Assembly: GCA_937951345.1 (NCBI GenBank)
Contig: CALFCF010000046.1
Coordinates: 1 to 64,000, forward strand
Direction: 5' to 3'
Origin: an uncultured Granulosicoccaceae bacterium
Lineage (GTDB): Bacteria; Pseudomonadota; Gammaproteobacteria; Granulosicoccales; Granulosicoccaceae
Length of the DNA stretch: 64,000 nucleotides
This document shows positions 2,984 to 10,807 of this stretch, piece after piece (the first letter of the stretch is position 1; each line of letters begins with the position of its first letter). The notes below the pieces were generated by a model that was not told the origin of the DNA, ran no database searches, and worked only from the letters and a program-made list of their open reading frames with translations. The position numbers and the translations under genes are program-made.

Positions 2984-3012
2984 TTGCTTTTATGTGTCAC
3001 GAAGGTACCAAT

Positions 3013-3372
3013 ATGCCTACTCCGACAACACCACCTAGCAAGGTGCGCCGAGCGCTGCGGTCGCTTGGGGCTGATATTCGCGATGCGCGCAAACGTCGTG
3101 CTTTATCCATGGAGACAGTTGCGGACAGGGCGTTCACTTCGCGTAAAACGCTTCAAAGAATCGAGCAAGGAGATTACAGCGTTAGTATTGGAATTTATGC
3201 TTCGGTGCTTAACGCACTCGGGTTGCTTGATGGGCTAACAGTACTGGCTGATCCTGCGAATGATGCAATTGGGATGGAACTGGTCAGGGCGAATCTTCCC
3301 CAGCGGGTGGGTTCTAAAAAGGTTGCGACCAGAAAACGTGGAAATAAAAAAGATGGTAGTGGTGACCAGTGA
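3013..3372 (+). CDS. HipB-like antitoxin (Xre/HTH_3 DNA-binding protein)
   Basis: Predicted antitoxin and transcriptional autorepressor of the following HipA kinase. The 119-residue protein has a Cro/C1-type helix-turn-helix in its first half (LGADIRDARKRRALSMETVADRAFTSR, then KTLQRIEQGD), as in HipB. The C-terminal tail is basic and rich in Lys, Arg and Gly. I start at the ATG at 3013, with AAGG a few bases upstream; an in-frame ATG at 2992 would add seven residues lying closer to the operator. The stop codon overlaps the hipA start by 4 bases (GTGA), so translation is coupled. A palindromic operator sits directly upstream. Confidence 0.85.
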   Translation: MPTPTTPPSKVRRALRSLGADIRDARKRRALSMETVADRAFTSRKTLQRIEQGDYSVSIGIYASVLNALGLLDGLTVLADPANDAIGMELVRANLPQRVGSKKVATRKRGNKKDGSGDQ

Positions 3373-4616
3373 GCGATATAGAAGTTTATATTTCGCTCGA
3401 TGGGTTCGACCAAAGAATTGGCACGCTGTTTCGGCAGCTCGCAAGAGGCAATGAGACGGTCAGTTTTGCTTATCATGATGACTGGCTTGGAAATTCTCAA
3501 CGTTTTTCACTTGAACCTGCTTTGCAAGTGGGCAAAGGACTATTCCATCCAAATAGTGAACGTGGAATTTTTGGATCAATAGGGGACTCCGCTCCTGACA
3601 CTTGGGGGCGAAGATTGATGCAGCGAGCTGAACGTCGAAGGGCTTTGATCGAATCGCGTCAACCACGAACATTGCTTGAAGCAGATTTTCTTTTGGGTGT
3701 TACCGATGTTTCGCGTCTTGGAGCACTTAGATTTAAGCAAGTTGATCAAAGCGAATTTCAGAAACCGATGGATGAAGGTGTACCTGGATTCATTCATCTG
3801 GGGCGGTTGTTGGACAGTGCCGACCGAATCGAACGTAATAGCGAAACTGATGAAGATCTTGATCTGATATTTGCACCCGGGTCATCTCTTGGTGGAGCAA
3901 GGCCAAAAGCGTCGGTTATAGATTCGCAAGGCAACTTGGCTATTGCTAAATTTCCCAAAGACACGGATGACTACCCAATTGAGACATGGGAGCATATTGC
4001 ACTGGTACTTGCGACACGTGCCGGAATAACGGTCGCCCGACATGAATTGCAAAAAATTAACGACAAGCCGGTTTTGCTATCGTGGCGCTTTGATCGAATT
4101 GGGCAAGAGCGGATTCCATTCCTCTCTGCCATGTCTTTATTACAGGCGAAAGACGGTGAGCGAGGAAGTTACGTGGAAGTCGTTGACGAACTCTCACAGC
4201 ACGGCGCAAACACAAAAGCAGATTCGGCAGAAATATTTCGACGCATGGTTTTTAATATCCTGGTGTCGAATGTTGATGATCACTTACGCAATCATGGTTT
4301 TCTTTGGACCGGTAAAAAGGGTTGGGTGTTGTCACCAGCCTATGACTTAAACCCAACACCGACCGACGTCAAACAGCGAATACTTAGCACTAATATCAGT
4401 CTTGAAGAGGGGACATGCTCAATTGAACTTGCGGTGTCGCAAGCCGAACTTTTTGGGCTAAGTTTAATTGAGGCTCGAAACGTGATTAGTGATGTTGCGG
4501 TAGCTGTGGCGACTTGGCGTGATGTTGCGAAAAGTGCTGGCTCAAGCAAATCTGAGCAAGATCGAATGTCCAGTGCCTTTGAGCATGATGATTTAATACA
4601 GGCGCTTAAGTGGTAA
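3369..4616 (+). CDS. HipA-family serine/threonine kinase toxin
   Basis: Toxin of a type II toxin-antitoxin pair. E. coli HipA phosphorylates glutamyl-tRNA synthetase; the target here is unknown. The 415-residue protein has the HipA N-terminal subdomain, then the GSSLGGARPKA loop (about residues 171-181), the catalytic NVDDHLRNH (301-309) and the metal-binding SPAYDLNP (322-329). All key residues look intact. The start is GTG, overlapping the antitoxin stop. The length is close to that of E. coli HipA (440). It differs clearly from the second HipA at 8.7-9.9 kb, so the two are not a recent duplication. Confidence 0.9.
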   Translation: MSDIEVYISLDGFDQRIGTLFRQLARGNETVSFAYHDDWLGNSQRFSLEPALQVGKGLFHPNSERGIFGSIGDSAPDTWGRRLMQRAERRRALIESRQPRTLLEADFLLGVTDVSRLGALRFKQVDQSEFQKPMDEGVPGFIHLGRLLDSADRIERNSETDEDLDLIFAPGSSLGGARPKASVIDSQGNLAIAKFPKDTDDYPIETWEHIALVLATRAGITVARHELQKINDKPVLLSWRFDRIGQERIPFLSAMSLLQAKDGERGSYVEVVDELSQHGANTKADSAEIFRRMVFNILVSNVDDHLRNHGFLWTGKKGWVLSPAYDLNPTPTDVKQRILSTNISLEEGTCSIELAVSQAELFGLSLIEARNVISDVAVAVATWRDVAKSAGSSKSEQDRMSSAFEHDDLIQALKW

Positions 4617-4668: not shown

Positions 4669-5060
4669 TATATATTTTAAAGGTTGCAGAAGAATTTTTG
4701 GAAAAGCGGTAAACTTTTGGTTCTACGGGTACCATGAACTGTCCGATCCGAACATCTTATGGTCCCGGCCCTAATAGAGCATTATGAGAGAGAGTGATGG
4801 TGGGCCCGGGAGGAGTCAACAATGCCATCCGAGAACCGAAGGCTTCCAGAGTAAAATGTATATGCTATCCGGGCTGGTATATGGGTTCAGAAACTTTGAG
4901 AATTACAGGCTAGAGCTTTACGATCCATACAGACCTCCAAATTTTATTACTAATAAACTGTCAGTGTGGGCGCTCAATTGAGCGCTGAGCAAGGTTGAGG
5001 GTAACTCTGGCGCTGGCGGTTTGCGCGCGCACGACACTTACCCCAAGTAGGGCAAACATA
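4669..5060. other. Gene-free stretch between hipA and vapB
   Basis: Apart from tRNA-fragment copy A, I see nothing convincing. A 65-codon ORF at 4784-4981 crosses the tRNA relic, lacks a ribosome site and resembles nothing, so I do not call it. Confidence 0.5.
4775..4820. repeat. Degenerate tRNA-Ile 3'-end fragment, copy A
   Basis: TGGTGGGCCCG followed by GAGGAGTCAAC matches, with a few changes, the complement of the 3' end of tRNA-Ile(CAU) at 10012-10036 (CCA, acceptor strand and part of the T arm). The preceding bases TAGAGC-TT-TGAGAGAGAGTGA are shared almost exactly with copy B at 5850-5883. Such relics arise when elements integrate at a tRNA 3' end. No integrase gene is nearby. Confidence 0.6.
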
Positions 5061-5124: not shown

Positions 5125-5316
5125 ATGAGAACCACACTCAACATTGATGACGAACTCTTACACCGTGCGCAAGAATTGACTGGCATTGATGAGAAAACAG
5201 CCTTGGTGAGGCAAGGTCTGGAAGCGCTTATAGCTCGAGAGAGTGCGCGACGCTTAGCAAAACTTGGCGGATCCGATCCGAATTTAAAAGACATCCCACG
5301 ACGTCGTTCAAAATAA
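5125..5316 (+). CDS. vapB: VapB-type antitoxin
   Basis: Predicted antitoxin that neutralises the adjacent PIN-domain ribonuclease and represses the operon. It is 63 residues long. The N-terminus MRTTLNIDDELLHRAQELTG is the usual ribbon-helix-helix start of this VapB group, and a basic C-terminal tail (IPRRRSK) would wrap the toxin. The ATG at 5125 is preferred over an in-frame GTG at 5113 because the family begins at MRTTLNID. Its stop codon shares one base with the vapC start (TAATG), so the pair is translationally coupled. Confidence 0.88.
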   Translation: MRTTLNIDDELLHRAQELTGIDEKTALVRQGLEALIARESARRLAKLGGSDPNLKDIPRRRSK

Positions 5317-5687
5317 TGAACGTTTTACTCGATACGTCGGTATGGATTGGGCATTTCAAAACATCCAATCTACGTGTGGTTCAATTGCTGGAATCTGAGT
5401 CAGTTGTTTCGCATGAGTTTGTGGTTGCTGAGATGGCGTGCGGTAGTTTAAAAGCCAGAGAAGAAACACTCGGTTACTTAAAAGAGTTGATTGCATTGCC
5501 AACTGTTTCTACTCAAGAGGTACTGCTGCTTATTGAGACCAAAAAGCTATACAGTCGAGGCATCGGTCTTATTGATGCGCACTTGCTAGCATCGACATTG
5601 ATAGTGTCGGATACCCAGTTATGGACAGCTGACAAACGATTAGAAAATATTGCTCAGGAGTTGGGCGTAGCATATTTAGTTAGTTGA
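5316..5687 (+). CDS. vapC: VapC-type PIN-domain ribonuclease toxin
   Basis: Predicted Mg-dependent endoribonuclease; VapC toxins often cut tRNA or 23S rRNA. The 123 residues form one PIN domain with the expected acidic residues: Asp in LLDTSVW near the N-terminus, Glu in VVAEMACG, Asp in GLIDAHLLAS and Asp in LWTADKRLE. The length is normal. It is coupled to vapB. Copies of the tRNA-Ile 3' end flank the module on both sides (4.8 and 5.87 kb), which suggests it arrived as a unit. Confidence 0.92.
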   Translation: MNVLLDTSVWIGHFKTSNLRVVQLLESESVVSHEFVVAEMACGSLKAREETLGYLKELIALPTVSTQEVLLLIETKKLYSRGIGLIDAHLLASTLIVSDTQLWTADKRLENIAQELGVAYLVS

Positions 5688-5789: not shown

Positions 5790-5897
5790 GTCTAATGAAT
5801 GCCCGTCCCCCGCTAATTGGGTAGAGCCCTTATCTTGGTTACGGTCCTATAGAGCGTTTTGAGAGAGAGTGATGGTGGGCCCGACATGAGTCAACCG
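5790..5897. repeat. Direct repeat copy B: tRNA-Ile flank plus 3'-end relic
   Basis: Bases 5790-5828 match 9945-9983 with 3 differences in 39 (GTCTAATGAATG, CCCCCG-TAATTGGGTAGAGCC). Further right, TGGTGGGCCCG from 5873 matches the complement of the tRNA-Ile 3' end at 10012. The same order, flank then tRNA end, is seen at the intact tRNA. The two copies therefore bracket the 4.1-kb amine oxidase/TetR/HipBA segment like attachment-site duplications. Confidence 0.7.
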
Positions 5898-5972
5898 GGC
5901 CGCGCAGGCGGGGCCGCCGAGGTCTGCGACCAGATGTTTCAGTATACGTAGTAGGATCGCAACCAAGATAAG
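5829..5972. repeat. Imperfect 20-bp inverted repeat around tRNA relic B
   Basis: CTTATCTTGGTTACGGTCCT (5829-5848) pairs with AGGATCGCAACCAAGATAAG (5953-5972) at 17 of 20 positions. The 104 bases between include the tRNA 3'-end relic and a GC-rich patch. This could be the footprint of a small element inserted at the relic, or a large hairpin. Confidence 0.5.
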
Positions 5973-6149
5973 TCCGCAAGTTGTCATCAACCCAGGTCCG
6001 CATAATAGTTTGAGTTACATACCTAAGCAGCGTTGAGTAGCACGACTAATTGTGGATGCAGAGTAAATAAAATTGCCACTGTTATCAATGGCAGTATGAC
6101 AAACGAAAAGTAGGGGTTATTGTAAGTAATAATAATTGAATCTAAACTT

Positions 6150-7379
6150 CTACAGGTAAACGCCCGCCAGGGTTTGAAGTGCTCTATCTACCACAACGTT
6201 GTCCGGCTCTTTGCTAAGTTGAAGTGCCGCTGTACCTGCGTTAAAAGCCATAATAATAGGTTGATTCACGTACTTACCGATATTGAACCAGAAGTTAAAC
6301 TGGCCTCGAGGCAAGCCATTATTTGGTGTGATAATATTCGATTTGTCGTCCCAGAACGGTTCTTCAAAACGTAGATAGAGCTTGTCGAGTGTACCCATGC
6401 CCATTCTGGCGATGGCGGCTTGTTTCTGTTCCGGTAATGCAGGTGATAAGGCAATTACCTTCTTTTTCAATACACCGAGCGGCACAGTCACAATCACCGC
6501 ATCATATTTTTCTAAGTCTTTATCTTGTACGCCGATCATCACCTCAGTACCCGAGTGTTCAATACGATCAACAGTGGCATTGAGCTGCACTTCGTAGTCG
6601 GCTCTAAGGGCCATGAAAATTTCGTCATAGCCATTTGGAAATACCACGTCAGTTCCCTTGTAACCGAAGCCGTATTGCTCGTACTGATTCATGGTTGCTT
6701 TTAAGTTTAGCTTGCCAACTTCTGCACCGGTTGATGTGTATAAACCCCATTCTTCCAACCATCCCGGTGCCAACAGGGTCCATATTTTCCGTCCGTTCTT
6801 ACCTCTAATAATATTATCGTCGGGAGTCGGGATGCGTTTTATACCGACATCATTAGATAATGCTGATATAGGGTTACCATCGGGCCCATGTATCCACGAC
6901 GCACCCAAATCGAGTGGTGTGCCAAGGCTTTTGCGATCTGTCCAAATTCGTCCACCGATGCGGTTTCGGCCTTCGAATACCACCACGTTTTTGCCTTGTT
7001 CCGATAATAGCTTTGCAGCTGAGCTACCACTGACACCTGCACCAATAATGGCGATATTCTTGTGCGCAGTTGCTGCAAGTTGCTTCGCTACGCTCTGACC
7101 CGACTCAAAGGCAGCCTGTACGCTGACTTGGTAGTGTGGGTTCAGAGCTTCACCGGCAAAGTAGACACGATCACCGATAGGTTCCAACAAGGTTTTACGA
7201 TCAGCGTCCCCGGATCCTTTAGCAAAATAGGAGTAGGAGCCATAAGAGAACGGATCTTGACTCCAGTTTGTGCGCACATAACCTACTAGCGGTGAAGGTG
7301 TTTTCGGAACGTCTGCCGCCTTTGCATAACCAGATAAAGGCACGGCCGCTACCATGGCCATAAAGTTACGTCGATCCAT
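6150..7379 (-). CDS. Flavin amine oxidase with circularly permuted domain order
   Basis: Predicted FAD-dependent oxidase of a primary or polyamine substrate (MAO/LSD1/polyamine oxidase family). The start at 7379 gives MDRRNF then a hydrophobic stretch ending in AKA, a Tat-like export signal. Next comes what is normally the C-terminal end of the family: VGYVRTNWSQDPFSYGSYSY, then VYFAGEALNPHYQVSVQAAF. Only after that comes the normal N-terminal FAD-binding motif IAIIGAGVSGSSAA, then GRIGGRIW-type and LDLGASWIHG motifs. The protein ends at ALQTLAGVYL, exactly where the moved block would usually continue. Total 409 residues from this start. It is divergent from a TetR regulator, with twin operators between. 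No part seems lost, so it may be active, but this is inferred. Confidence 0.85.
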   Translation of the reverse strand: MDRRNFMAMVAAVPLSGYAKAADVPKTPSPLVGYVRTNWSQDPFSYGSYSYFAKGSGDADRKTLLEPIGDRVYFAGEALNPHYQVSVQAAFESGQSVAKQLAATAHKNIAIIGAGVSGSSAAKLLSEQGKNVVVFEGRNRIGGRIWTDRKSLGTPLDLGASWIHGPDGNPISALSNDVGIKRIPTPDDNIIRGKNGRKIWTLLAPGWLEEWGLYTSTGAEVGKLNLKATMNQYEQYGFGYKGTDVVFPNGYDEIFMALRADYEVQLNATVDRIEHSGTEVMIGVQDKDLEKYDAVIVTVPLGVLKKKVIALSPALPEQKQAAIARMGMGTLDKLYLRFEEPFWDDKSNIITPNNGLPRGQFNFWFNIGKYVNQPIIMAFNAGTAALQLSKEPDNVVVDRALQTLAGVYL

Positions 7380-7425
7380 TGTTTTGTCTCTAATCTGATT
7401 TGAAATAGTGGAGAGAAGTATTGAA

Positions 7426-7479
7426 TAGGTCATATGACCTAACATTAAGTTATTTTAAGTCGAATGACCTAATTGTCAA
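7426..7479. promoter_or_regulatory. Twin TetR operators over the amine oxidase promoter
   Basis: A perfect 16-bp palindrome TAGGTCATATGACCTA lies at 7426-7441. A second, imperfect copy TAAGTCGAATGACCTA lies at 7456-7471, exactly 30 bases away (about three helical turns). On the minus strand TTGACA (7479-7474) and TAAAAT (7457-7452), 16 bases apart, form a strong promoter for the amine oxidase that the second operator covers. The divergent TetR protein is the obvious ligand. Confidence 0.75.
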
Positions 7480-7547
7480 GTACAGGTGCTATATCATGCT
7501 TCAACAAGCGAGCGGATGAGCGGCCGGATAATGATGGATTTTGTACT

Positions 7548-8114
7548 ATGAGTTCGACAAAAAACCGTATTTTGCAGGCAGCCAGAGCCGTTTTAATTAC
7601 GCAAGGTAGCGGTGGCTTTTCCATGCGTAAGGTTGCAGCTGAAGCCGCCATGGCTCTGGGTAACGTCCAATATCACTACAAGACTAAAGCCGATCTCCTG
7701 AGCGGGTTGATGCTCTGGTATGTGGCTGAGAATAGGCGTGCACTCGTGCAAGCGATGAATGAAGTGGGAGCAGGGAAGGAGGGGCTTCGAGCCTTTATCC
7801 ATTTCGTGCTGACGGATGAAGAAGACGGTGATGAAATCAAGTTGACTCTGGCGATAGTTGCCTGTGCCGAAGAGGAGGCATTAACTCATCAGTTCGCCGC
7901 GTTCTATGAAGAATTTTATGCGCTATTGGCTAATTTCCTGGGACGTATAGCTGGCAAACCGGTTGAGTCTACGGGTATTCAGACAGGCGCTTCTGTGCTC
8001 CTGACGATAATTAATGGCTATGGGATGGTGAGTCAGCAACTAGGGATCAATACGGCAGTGATGGCTGATGAACTGTCGGTGATGATCTGGGATAAGGTTT
8101 CTATAGCGGATTAA
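7548..8114 (+). CDS. TetR-family transcriptional regulator
   Basis: Predicted repressor of itself and of the divergent amine oxidase. The 188-residue protein has the TetR DNA-binding domain in its first 50 residues (TKNRILQAARAVLITQGSGG, then FSMRKVAAEAAMALGNVQYHYKTKADLL), followed by a helical ligand-binding domain. I start at the ATG at 7548; the ORF could reach 7473, but that would cover the promoter and operator region. The TetR domain normally lies right at the N-terminus, which fits this start. The ligand may be an amine or its aldehyde product; this is inferred from the neighbour only. Confidence 0.88.
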   Translation: MSSTKNRILQAARAVLITQGSGGFSMRKVAAEAAMALGNVQYHYKTKADLLSGLMLWYVAENRRALVQAMNEVGAGKEGLRAFIHFVLTDEEDGDEIKLTLAIVACAEEEALTHQFAAFYEEFYALLANFLGRIAGKPVESTGIQTGASVLLTIINGYGMVSQQLGINTAVMADELSVMIWDKVSIAD

Positions 8115-8355: not shown

Positions 8356-8691
8356 ATGGCTGTAAATCGTCCGTATACCAAGACCACATTAGAAGCCGCC
8401 AGGCTACTAGGCCAACTCATCAAACTGTCCAGAAAGAAGCACCGTATGTCTGAGAGCGAACTGGCAGCGCGTGCTCACATCGCCAGAAGCACGGTGCAGA
8501 AAATTGAAAAGGGTGACCCTTCAATAAATATCGGGCTGGTGTTCGAAGCTGCCAATGTTGTTGGTGTGGCATTGTTCAATACAAATGACTCACATGACTT
8601 GAGGCGACACAACGACTTTCTGACCGATCAGTTGACTTTGCTTACTCGTAAATCCAAAAAGGATGACAGTGAACTCAAAGATGACTTCTGA
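8356..8691 (+). CDS. HipB-like antitoxin (Xre/HTH_3), second module
   Basis: Predicted antitoxin and autorepressor for the following HipA. It has 111 residues with a Cro/C1-type helix-turn-helix (LGQLIKLSRKKHRMSESELA, then ARAHIARSTVQKIEKGDPSI at about residues 15-55). The C-terminal tail is charged. Its end overlaps the hipA start by 11 bases when the kinase begins at 8681. The gene lies inside the segment bracketed by repeats B and C. It shares only the fold with the first HipB. Confidence 0.87.
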   Translation: MAVNRPYTKTTLEAARLLGQLIKLSRKKHRMSESELAARAHIARSTVQKIEKGDPSINIGLVFEAANVVGVALFNTNDSHDLRRHNDFLTDQLTLLTRKSKKDDSELKDDF

Positions 8692-9943
8692 AAAGGAAGC
8701 TTTCGTGTGGGTTTGGCTGCCAGGAACAGTTGAGCCAGTGGTAGCGGGAAGAATATCTAAGGCCAGAGGCCAGTACCTTTTTAACTATGGACAATCCTAC
8801 CTTGCATTGGAGGATGCTATTGCACTACATGAGGAAGAGCTACCACTACGATCCGGGATTATCCATTCATTGCCAGGATTAACCATTGCCGGCTGCTTAC
8901 GAGATGGCGCACCGGATGCCTGGGGGCGTCGTGTCCTGGTGAATCGATTGTCGAATGATCCAACTTATACTGGCGAACTGAATGAATCGGATCAGCTTTT
9001 GTTTATGCTCCATTCAGGGTCAAACCGTACTGGCTCATTAGATTTTCAAATCTCGGCAACACGATACATGCCGCGAGTAAATGACTCAGGCACGTTGCAA
9101 GAGTTACTCAGTTCTGCTGACCGAGTTGAAAATGGAGCGCAACTGAGTTTAAGTTTAGATGCTGCATTAATACATGGCACATCAATTGGAGGTGCGCGGC
9201 CCAAAGCACATATTATGGGGTTAGATAAGCAGTACGTCGCTAAATTTTCTTCTCAATCGGACACACGATCTATTGTAAAGGCTGAGTACGTTGCAATGCG
9301 ATTGGCACAGAAGGTTGGTCTGAGTGTCGCGCCTGTTGAATATAAGCGTGTAGGGAATAAAGATGTATTGCTAGTTGAAAGATTTGATCGGGAATACTTT
9401 GAAAATGGTTGGCAAAGGAAAAGCGTTTTATCTGCTTTAACATTGTTAAAGCTTGATGAGATGATGGGCCGATACGCCAGTTACGAGGATTTAGCAGAGC
9501 TGATTCGATTAAAATTTAAAGATCCAAAACAAACGCTTGCCGAATTGTTTGGTCGAATGGTTTTTAATGTTTTAGTTGGCAATACTGATGATCATGCTCG
9601 AAACCATACAGCCTTTTGGGACGGGGATAAGTTGAGCCTGACCCCAGCTTTTGATATCTGTCCTCAGAGCAGAGCCGGTGGGGAGGCATCGCAAGCCATG
9701 AGAATAGTAGGACAAAAAAATCTAAGCCGGTTGGATGTTTGTATGCAAAGCGTTGGTCAGTTTGGGCTGAAAGATAAGGTTGCCTTAGATGTTATTAAAC
9801 AACAAATACAAGTAATAAAAAATCAATGGAGTTTGGTTTGCGACGAGGCTGATATGAGCGTGGTTGATCGAAACTTTCTTTGGGGACGGCAGATTTTTAA
9901 TCCATTTTCGGTTGAGGGGTTTGAGGAGCTGGTTTCCAGGTAG
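8681..9943 (+). CDS. HipA-family serine/threonine kinase toxin, second module
   Basis: Predicted toxin kinase of the second HipBA pair; its target is unknown. The 420 residues include HGTSIGGARPKA (about 166-176), catalytic NTDDHARNH (301-309) and TPAFDICP (321-328), so the active site is complete. It belongs to the longer HipA subgroup that begins MTSEKEAFVWVWLPG; that is why I start at 8681 rather than at the in-frame ATG at 8663. Neither start has a strong ribosome site, consistent with translational coupling to the overlapping antitoxin gene. Repeat C begins at 9945, just past the stop. Confidence 0.9.
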   Translation: MTSEKEAFVWVWLPGTVEPVVAGRISKARGQYLFNYGQSYLALEDAIALHEEELPLRSGIIHSLPGLTIAGCLRDGAPDAWGRRVLVNRLSNDPTYTGELNESDQLLFMLHSGSNRTGSLDFQISATRYMPRVNDSGTLQELLSSADRVENGAQLSLSLDAALIHGTSIGGARPKAHIMGLDKQYVAKFSSQSDTRSIVKAEYVAMRLAQKVGLSVAPVEYKRVGNKDVLLVERFDREYFENGWQRKSVLSALTLLKLDEMMGRYASYEDLAELIRLKFKDPKQTLAELFGRMVFNVLVGNTDDHARNHTAFWDGDKLSLTPAFDICPQSRAGGEASQAMRIVGQKNLSRLDVCMQSVGQFGLKDKVALDVIKQQIQVIKNQWSLVCDEADMSVVDRNFLWGRQIFNPFSVEGFEELVSR

Positions 9944-10011: not shown

Positions 10012-10346
10012 TGGTGGGCCCGGCAGGACTCGAACCTGCGACCAATGGATTCACTGTGTCCGAAGCTTTCGCAACGGAGTGGACTATCTCATCACCCGCA
10101 ATAAATTTAAACAGGCATTAATTGCTAGGGTGCGGGACGCTCTTGCCTGTTATTAAGAACACTTTAGTTCTCAGGTAGTCTCTGCACCTTCCAGAGGTGT
10201 ACCTCTGGCTTGGCTCAGGATTGCCATCAGCCCGATTTAACACGGCTGCTAAGGGTTTCCTGAATTCATCCCGTTCATTCTATATTTTTCAATATAGACG
10301 CACCATTTGATGAGTCCACTGCTCTAACCAACTGAGCTACAGGCCC
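10012..10346 (-). tRNA. ileX: tRNA-Ile(CAU), split by an intron
   Basis: Two exons, 10346-10310 (37 nt) and 10051-10012 (40 nt, CCA encoded), join to a normal 77-nt cloverleaf. The acceptor stem GGGCCTG pairs with the matching bases before CCA. The D arm (GCTCAGTTGGTTAGAGC), anticodon stem GTGGA/TCCAT with loop CTCATAA, and T arm (GCAGGTTCGAGTCCTGC) are all intact. The CAU anticodon in this sequence context marks the isoleucine tRNA that needs lysidine, not a methionine tRNA. The 258-nt intron interrupts the loop right after the anticodon. The gene lies next to rpoD, as ileX does in E. coli. Confidence 0.92.
10052..10309 (-). ncRNA. Group I intron in the tRNA-Ile anticodon loop
   Basis: A self-splicing ribozyme, probably subgroup IC3 like the Azoarcus tRNA-Ile(CAU) intron, inserted at the same kind of site. 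The 5' exon ends in CAU and the intron carries GUG at 10303-10301 as guide, giving the required U-G pair at the splice site. P2 is a CTATATT/AATATAG hairpin with a GAAA loop (10297-10280). The Q-like element lies at 10222-10207, a P6-type hairpin CCAGAGGT/ACCTCTGG at 10208-10191, the R element GGTGCAGAGACTACC at 10188-10174 and the S element GAGATAGTCC at 10090-10081. P3 can form from TTCAGG and CCTGAG. The last intron base is G. It has no ORF inside. It is longer than the roughly 205-nt Azoarcus intron because of extra sequence in the P8 region. Confidence 0.92.
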
Positions 10347-10438: not shown

Positions 10439-10807
10439 ATGAAGTGTCTAGTATGCGCAAAACAACTGACCGGAAGGCAAAAAAAATTCTGTTCCAGATC
10501 GTGCAAGAACTCTTGGGGTAACAACGTTCACCAAAATTACGTAGCCCAACAAGAGAGAGGGAGAACCAGAAAAATAGAACTTATTGAGCTATTTGGCGGG
10601 GCTTGTGCCGAGTGCGGTTACAAAAAAAATTATGCAGCACTGGAATTTCATCATGTAGATAGCAAAAGCAAGTCGTTTCAACTCGACTTGCGTTCGCTTT
10701 CCAATCGGAAATGGTCGTCTATCATCCGCGAATCACGTAAGTGCCGGCTATTGTGTTCCAATTGCCACGCTGAATTACACAATCCTGAGTGTAGACTTTA
10801 TTCGTAA
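10439..10807 (+). CDS. Small HNH endonuclease-like zinc protein
   Basis: Predicted DNA-cutting or DNA-binding protein of 122 residues. An N-terminal zinc ribbon has Cys3, Cys6, Cys18 and Cys22. The C-terminal half is an HNH-type beta-beta-alpha metal fold: CAECG (56-60), EFHHVD (69-74) and LLCSNCHAELH (104-114). It is basic between the two parts. It starts 92 bases from the 5' end of the intron-bearing tRNA and points away from it. A free-standing homing endonuclease helping the intron spread is possible; such nucleases sit beside group I introns in phages. It could equally be an unrelated HNH protein. No other gene shares its transcript. Confidence 0.75.
   Translation: MKCLVCAKQLTGRQKKFCSRSCKNSWGNNVHQNYVAQQERGRTRKIELIELFGGACAECGYKKNYAALEFHHVDSKSKSFQLDLRSLSNRKWSSIIRESRKCRLLCSNCHAELHNPECRLYS

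Follow-up and report, generated by a model that had tools for sequence, protein, structure and literature searches.

The window analyzed here is a stretch of 64,000 nucleotides from an uncultured Granulosicoccaceae bacterium. On its minus strand, the ORF at 6150-7445 encodes a flavin amine oxidase of 409 amino acids when read from the ATG at 7379 (MDRRNF...). We prefer this start because homologues open with MxRR and the alternative ATG at 7445 abuts a palindrome at 7426-7441; the coordinates 6150-7379 of the initial annotation are correct. The features of the gene and of its regulatory region are as follows (the evidence for each is in parentheses).

6150-7379, minus strand: coding sequence of the permuted flavin amine oxidase, 409 amino acids plus stop (ORF, translation, PF01593 at 211 bits)
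7317-7379, minus strand: Tat-like signal peptide, residues 1-21, MDRRNFMAMVAAVPLSGYAKA (sequence reading; twin arginine at the same place in permuted homologues; AlphaFold2 pLDDT below 50 for residues 1-25)
7074-7298, minus strand: relocated canonical C-terminal block, residues 28-102 (aligns to LSD1, LSD2 and 17 canonical C-termini)
7149-7160, minus strand: FAGE, the FAD-contact motif, residues 74-77 (sequence; E77 in 19 of 19 permuted members)
7059-7073, minus strand: new joint, linker residues 103-107, leading from block helix 87-102 to Rossmann strand 108-112 (DSSP on the AlphaFold2 model; pLDDT 97-98)
6153-7058, minus strand: FAD/substrate body, residues 108-409, with the new C-terminus ALQTLAGVYL-stop (alignments, AlphaFold2; stop at the same place in intact permuted members)
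7026-7043, minus strand: GxGxxG dinucleotide-binding motif, GAGVSG, residues 113-118 (G113, G115 and G118 in 19 of 19)
6762-6794, minus strand: site of a deletion of approximately 40 residues in the helical substrate domain, near residues 196-206 (alignment; WIHG-to-PLGVL spacing)
6381-6383, minus strand: conserved lysine K333 in LDKLYLRF, aligned with the LSD1 active-site lysine K661 (alignment; lysine in 19/19 permuted and 16/17 canonical proteins)
7548-8114, plus strand: TetR-type regulator (PF00440), likely starting at ATG 7548 inside a longer ORF at 7473-8114 (Pfam; start read from sequence)
7426-7441, no strand: perfect palindrome of 16 bp, TAGGTCATATGACCTA, in the divergent promoter region, a candidate operator for TetR (sequence)
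7456-7471, no strand: second operator-like site with 3 mismatches, 30 bp from the first (sequence)

MAO, LSD1 and the polyamine oxidases are drug targets with textbook folds, whose chain opens with the FAD motif and closes with the FAGE block; it begins with the first strand and ends with the last helix. The window protein runs from the signal-like MDRRNFMAMVAAVPLSGYAKA to PSPLVGYVRTNWSQDPFSYGSYSY…RVYFAGEALNPHYQVSVQAAFESG, then to KNIAIIGAGVSG…, and finally to ALQTLAGVYL and the stop. The block carries W39..D42P43, G47SYS50, F74AGE77 and A90..S93G94, and the FAD-binding motif (GxGxxG plus ExR..GGR) is also present; FAGE lies approximately 36 residues before GxGxxG, whereas canonical FAGE lies approximately 370 residues after it. 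The match to PF01593 (211 bits against a cut-off of 19.8) is split into three stretches, and the canonical segment order, with the FAD motif first and the FAGE block last, is absent: the protein belongs to PF01593 by homology, not by architecture. In a phmmer alignment with LSD2 (4gu0), residues 106-181 map to residues 336-411 of the chain, residues 234-405 to 516-692, and residues 27-103 to the C-terminal 700-775 (i-E 3e-6). The alignment with LSD1 has the same rotated order. These alignments bear out the initial annotation, which had placed the closing block between a Tat-like signal and GxGxxG; the protein stops where that block would normally begin. The initial annotation had also named a C-terminal copy of the block as one observation that would speak against permutation; no such copy is found when all frames downstream of the stop are read as far as 5600, and tblastn of the protein against its own locus gives a single HSP. 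The Tat-like features, read by eye, are a twin arginine, a hydrophobic stretch and an AxA site, and are also seen in most homologues. A periplasmic location of the product is therefore probable: the signal precedes the block in the window protein and most homologues, just as it precedes the FAD domain in canonical relatives.

The same permuted order occurs in at least 20 other bacterial proteins from independent genomes, mostly Rhodobacteraceae, which answers the proposal of the initial annotation to search for homologues with this order. The 20 comprise a protein from a second Granulosicoccaceae MAG (93% identical), approximately 14 from Rhodobacteraceae and four from another alphaproteobacterial family. 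When one genome per species is considered, the relatives collinear over the whole length are L006 (the Granulosicoccaceae MAG, 93%), L007 (a Rhodobacteraceae MAG, 48%) and L008 (a Rhodobacterales MAG, 51%); all three give single collinear tblastn HSPs, and 17 canonical loci give split, swapped ones. In profile searches, a sample of 398 genomes drawn from across the phylum yielded two more permuted proteins and a class-wide one yielded two. Family f223, which includes Rhodobacteraceae, yielded 14 from 397 genomes (one is the L007 genome), and 4 of the 17 genomes of family f269 each carry one. There is no further gammaproteobacterium with a permuted oxidase among 369 sampled, and a search of additional genomes from the same genus and the same family found none at E <= 1e-20. 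Among the carriers are several near-complete genomes in few contigs (4 in G976, approximately 20 in G523), and each of the 21 loci has one block and one copy per segment. No phage-borne relatives were confirmed in IMG/VR, and plasmids gave only weaker matches, which we read as canonical-order relatives.

Three other loci deserve mention. In a Thiotrichaceae genome (L022:4908-5159) there is what remains of a permuted oxidase after 5' truncation: 50 amino acids, 80% identical, which lie behind other sequence and end at the permuted stop. The host genome itself has a distant canonical-order amine oxidase paralogue of 414 amino acids (L056, G000:C1:65773-66987), next to an ORF that by eye resembles trimethylamine methyltransferase. 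L075 (415 amino acids) was considered as a short canonical-order sister and rejected; it has canonical order, a spacing of 157 and, by eye, the look of an L-amino acid oxidase.

The TetR gene is divergent from the oxidase gene, and operator-like sites have two matches in the 64 kb against 0.16 expected. The divergent gene and the two sites together suggest inducible control by TetR. TetR genes also adjoin the permuted oxidases of L008, L062 (where the ORF is a hydrolase-TetR fusion), L064 and L067, and the TetR neighbors of L008 and L064 have BetI-type C-terminal similarity. We find no conserved operon across 14 further genomes, L006-L008 and the window, which share almost nothing beyond the recurrent TetR; because neighboring genes are not conserved, the genomic context names no substrate. 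L060 adjoins a glutamine-synthetase-like gene and an amino-acid-type ABC transporter (the latter read from sequence), hinting at amine catabolism. The only conserved neighborhood seen is that of L063 and L068, two divergent members from Rhodobacteraceae, where by-eye gene names give a Crp/Fnr-type regulator and a HemN-like gene on one side of the oxidase and a UspA-like gene and cytochrome-oxidase-like genes on the other.

The surrounding stretch of the window is rich in toxin-antitoxin genes: two HipB-HipA-like pairs (2992-4616 and 8356-9943) bracket the oxidase/TetR region, and a PIN-domain toxin-like gene lies at 5316-5687. This PIN gene stands between an element at 5815-5985, which has 21-nt inverted arms (5829-5849 and 5952-5972), and a partial 85% copy of it at 4760-4820; no other copy was found in the genome. 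Further on, a group I intron (RF00028, 76.7 bits) at 10060-10321 on the minus strand appears, by reading, to interrupt a minus-strand tRNA gene at approximately 10345-10015, with anticodon CAT by eye and tRNA-Ile2-like, although ARAGORN reports no tRNA in the window. Beside it, a 122 amino acid ORF at 10439-10807 (plus strand) has Cys pairs and an HNH-like pattern, has no Pfam match and is possibly a homing-type endonuclease.

What distinguishes the permuted proteins besides their order? The spacing from GASWIHG to PLGVL is 127-134 residues in all of them and 157-186 in all canonical proteins measured, and by alignment every permuted member is approximately 40 residues short in its helical substrate domain, near window residues 196-206. 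The remark in the initial annotation that nothing seems missing therefore fails for the helical domain. The FAD-contact residues and the catalytic lysine are kept: G113/G115/G118, E136, GGR142-144 and K333 in the body, and W39, D42, G47, Y49, S50 and AGE75-77 in the block, are invariant in 19/19 permuted proteins. At position 88 the window protein has Gln, compared with His in 17/19 permuted and 17/17 canonical proteins.

An AlphaFold2 model of the window protein (30 rows) has a mean pLDDT of 86.7 and a pTM of 0.86, and only residues 1-25 fall below 50. Block residues 31-102 reach 83-97 per ten-residue bin, mostly at least 91 (83 for residues 81-90), and the joint, from helix 87-102 through linker 103-107 to strand 108-112, reaches 97-98. 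The structure prediction proposed in the initial annotation thus returns a compact fold of which the N-terminal block is confidently a part. In a body-only control, pTM is 0.80 and confidence falls to 55 for residues 157-166 (the GASWIHG loop; 87 and 73 in the overlapping full-model bins) and to 62 for residues 237-246 (73 and 86). This loss fits a block that may pack near the FAD site, although the control also used fewer rows than the full model, so that the drop is weak evidence for packing. Foldseek ranks LSD2, LSD1 and maize PAO as the best PDB matches (probability 1.00, with TMq reaching 0.67 for LSD2), in sequential alignments, which cannot show a permuted overlay.

The enzyme might be permuted and exported and yet be another kind of flavoenzyme, such as an L-amino acid oxidase, a dehydrogenase with a different acceptor or an FAD-binding sensor. 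The missing stretch of substrate domain, the lack of any NCBIfam family above its cut-off, the uninformative genomic context and the presence of the L-amino acid oxidase 7eme in the Foldseek list all leave room for this possibility. However, the lysine aligned with the LSD1 active-site lysine is invariant, the GSYS and FAGE residues are retained, and LSD1, LSD2 and the polyamine oxidases are the best matches in both sequence and fold; we consider another activity possible but rather unlikely. For an amine oxidase of the PAO/LSD1 type, the chemistry of the family, in which FAD oxidizes the amine and is reoxidized by O2 to give H2O2, would be expected to be unchanged.

For maximum-likelihood trees we rotated the permuted proteins in silico to canonical order. 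All 21 permuted proteins group in a single clade (support 100/98; 100% of bootstraps), apart from 27 canonical proteins, and were likewise one clade in a first-pass tree of 19 permuted and 18 canonical proteins. The clade has a support of 98 in a body-only tree; in a block-only tree of 77 columns, which is too short to resolve the question, the permuted set is not one clade (2 changes). Within the clade, the window protein and L006 are placed beside L008, deep within the alphaproteobacterial radiation. This nesting, together with the absence of the gene from other members of the family, suggests that the window gene was gained by horizontal transfer. The permutation probably arose once in an alphaproteobacterial lineage, with or alongside the trim of approximately 40 residues; from there it would have spread through Rhodobacteraceae and a second family, and reached Granulosicoccaceae horizontally.

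How might the rotation have come about? The route proposed in the initial annotation, duplication followed by end loss, is plausible; it would also require a new connection between signal and block. No duplicated or doubly flanked (block-body-block) intermediate is seen among approximately 2,000 genomes. One candidate, L015, where an HSP extends past the stop as in a tandem gene, was rejected: what follows the stop there is unrelated. Of the two principal models for protein permutation, fission and fusion is one (PMC3320104). The N-terminal block could accordingly have come from a different amine oxidase gene, by fission and fusion or by capture of a stand-alone block, with the body losing its own. 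Such a fusion would sit well with the missing intermediate, with the unresolved block-only tree and with the position of the signal ahead of the block, which plain duplication and end loss do not directly give. On the other hand, block and body distances co-vary (r = 0.76), each being smaller among the permuted proteins than towards canonical relatives, and no stand-alone block gene was noticed in passing; we regard the fusion as improbable.

The window gene is under purifying selection: dN/dS against L006, its nearest relative, is 0.138 overall (0.165 for the block and 0.127 for the body). That a recent rearrangement or mis-join moved the block and left a dead protein is scarcely credible and is refuted by the recurrence of the order in 20 other proteins, whose assemblies are independent and in several cases near-complete with few contigs, as well as by this dN/dS and the invariant catalytic residues, even though the window sequence is on only one contig of one genome and the L022 fragment tells us that family members do decay. 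The reading of a true permutation rather than damage, made in the initial annotation, holds well: the order is conserved in 21 proteins of one clade, under purifying selection and with a compact, confident predicted fold.

The window gene very probably encodes an intact, circularly permuted FAD amine oxidase of the PAO/LSD1 type, probably exported by Tat, of single origin, with a trimmed helical domain and acquired horizontally. The break in the chain lies in the loop ahead of the final FAD-binding segment (before the W..DP strand), and a linker of 5 residues connects the old C-terminal helix with the first Rossmann strand. Fold and active site would be rebuilt with new ends, and FAGE and GxGxxG, the two halves of the FAD clamp, are together in one contiguous N-terminal stretch of approximately 110 residues. 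The periplasmic enzyme would oxidize some amine with O2 to an imine or aldehyde and H2O2, with the divergent TetR in control. It is tempting to speculate, and we give the idea little credence, that the rotation is adaptive: FAD-clamp motifs contiguous behind the Tat signal and a trimmed domain would make a distinct periplasmic class, which loads FAD on the nascent N-terminal half before export and has a substrate unlike that of canonical enzymes.

We found no described case of natural permutation in flavin amine oxidases in open-licence PMC full texts, in keeping with the initial annotation, which knew of no example. The family is real and apparently a working one, in which evolution has cut a well-studied enzyme fold and rejoined it at new ends. 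A natural, single-origin and widely retained rotation means that a specific loop of the fold can accommodate new ends. The permuted oxidase offers engineering a ready-made scaffold and makes it possible to test directly how chain order affects FAD loading, folding order and Tat export. Annotation by motif order or domain architecture can misfile such genes, and NCBIfam has no matching family.

Among known systems, the amine oxidase domain of LSD1 and LSD2 (KDM1A and KDM1B) gives the best PDB matches by sequence and fold, with GxGxxG, GGR, the active-site lysine, a GSYSY-like segment and FAGE in common. The window protein differs in being rotated, in lacking the SWIRM, tower and zinc finger, in its much smaller helical domain and in its Tat-like signal. 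The polyamine oxidases (maize PAO, 1b37; spermine oxidase, 7oxl) share PF01593, a similar size without extra domains, and sequence and fold matches, but their order is the canonical one and their helical substrate domain is full. The full substrate domain of the LSD/PAO subfamily is absent from the window protein, its helical region being approximately 40 residues shorter than in canonical relatives; subfamily placement is judged by this domain alone, as the trees contained no characterized LSD or PAO sequence. The nearest canonical-order relatives found are Tat-signal oxidases of Rhodobacteraceae (L083, L085, L089) and Bacteroidota (L009, L013), which have a similar signal and the same motifs; unlike the permuted proteins, they have the block at the C-terminus and a WIHG-PLGVL spacing of 157-186 instead of 127-134, and they are split from the permuted clade at 100/98. 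The natural circular permutations named in PMC3320104 include saposin/swaposin, DNA methyltransferases and transhydrogenases, none of which is a flavin amine oxidase. With these three the permuted oxidases have in common one conserved fold, a rotated order and new ends.
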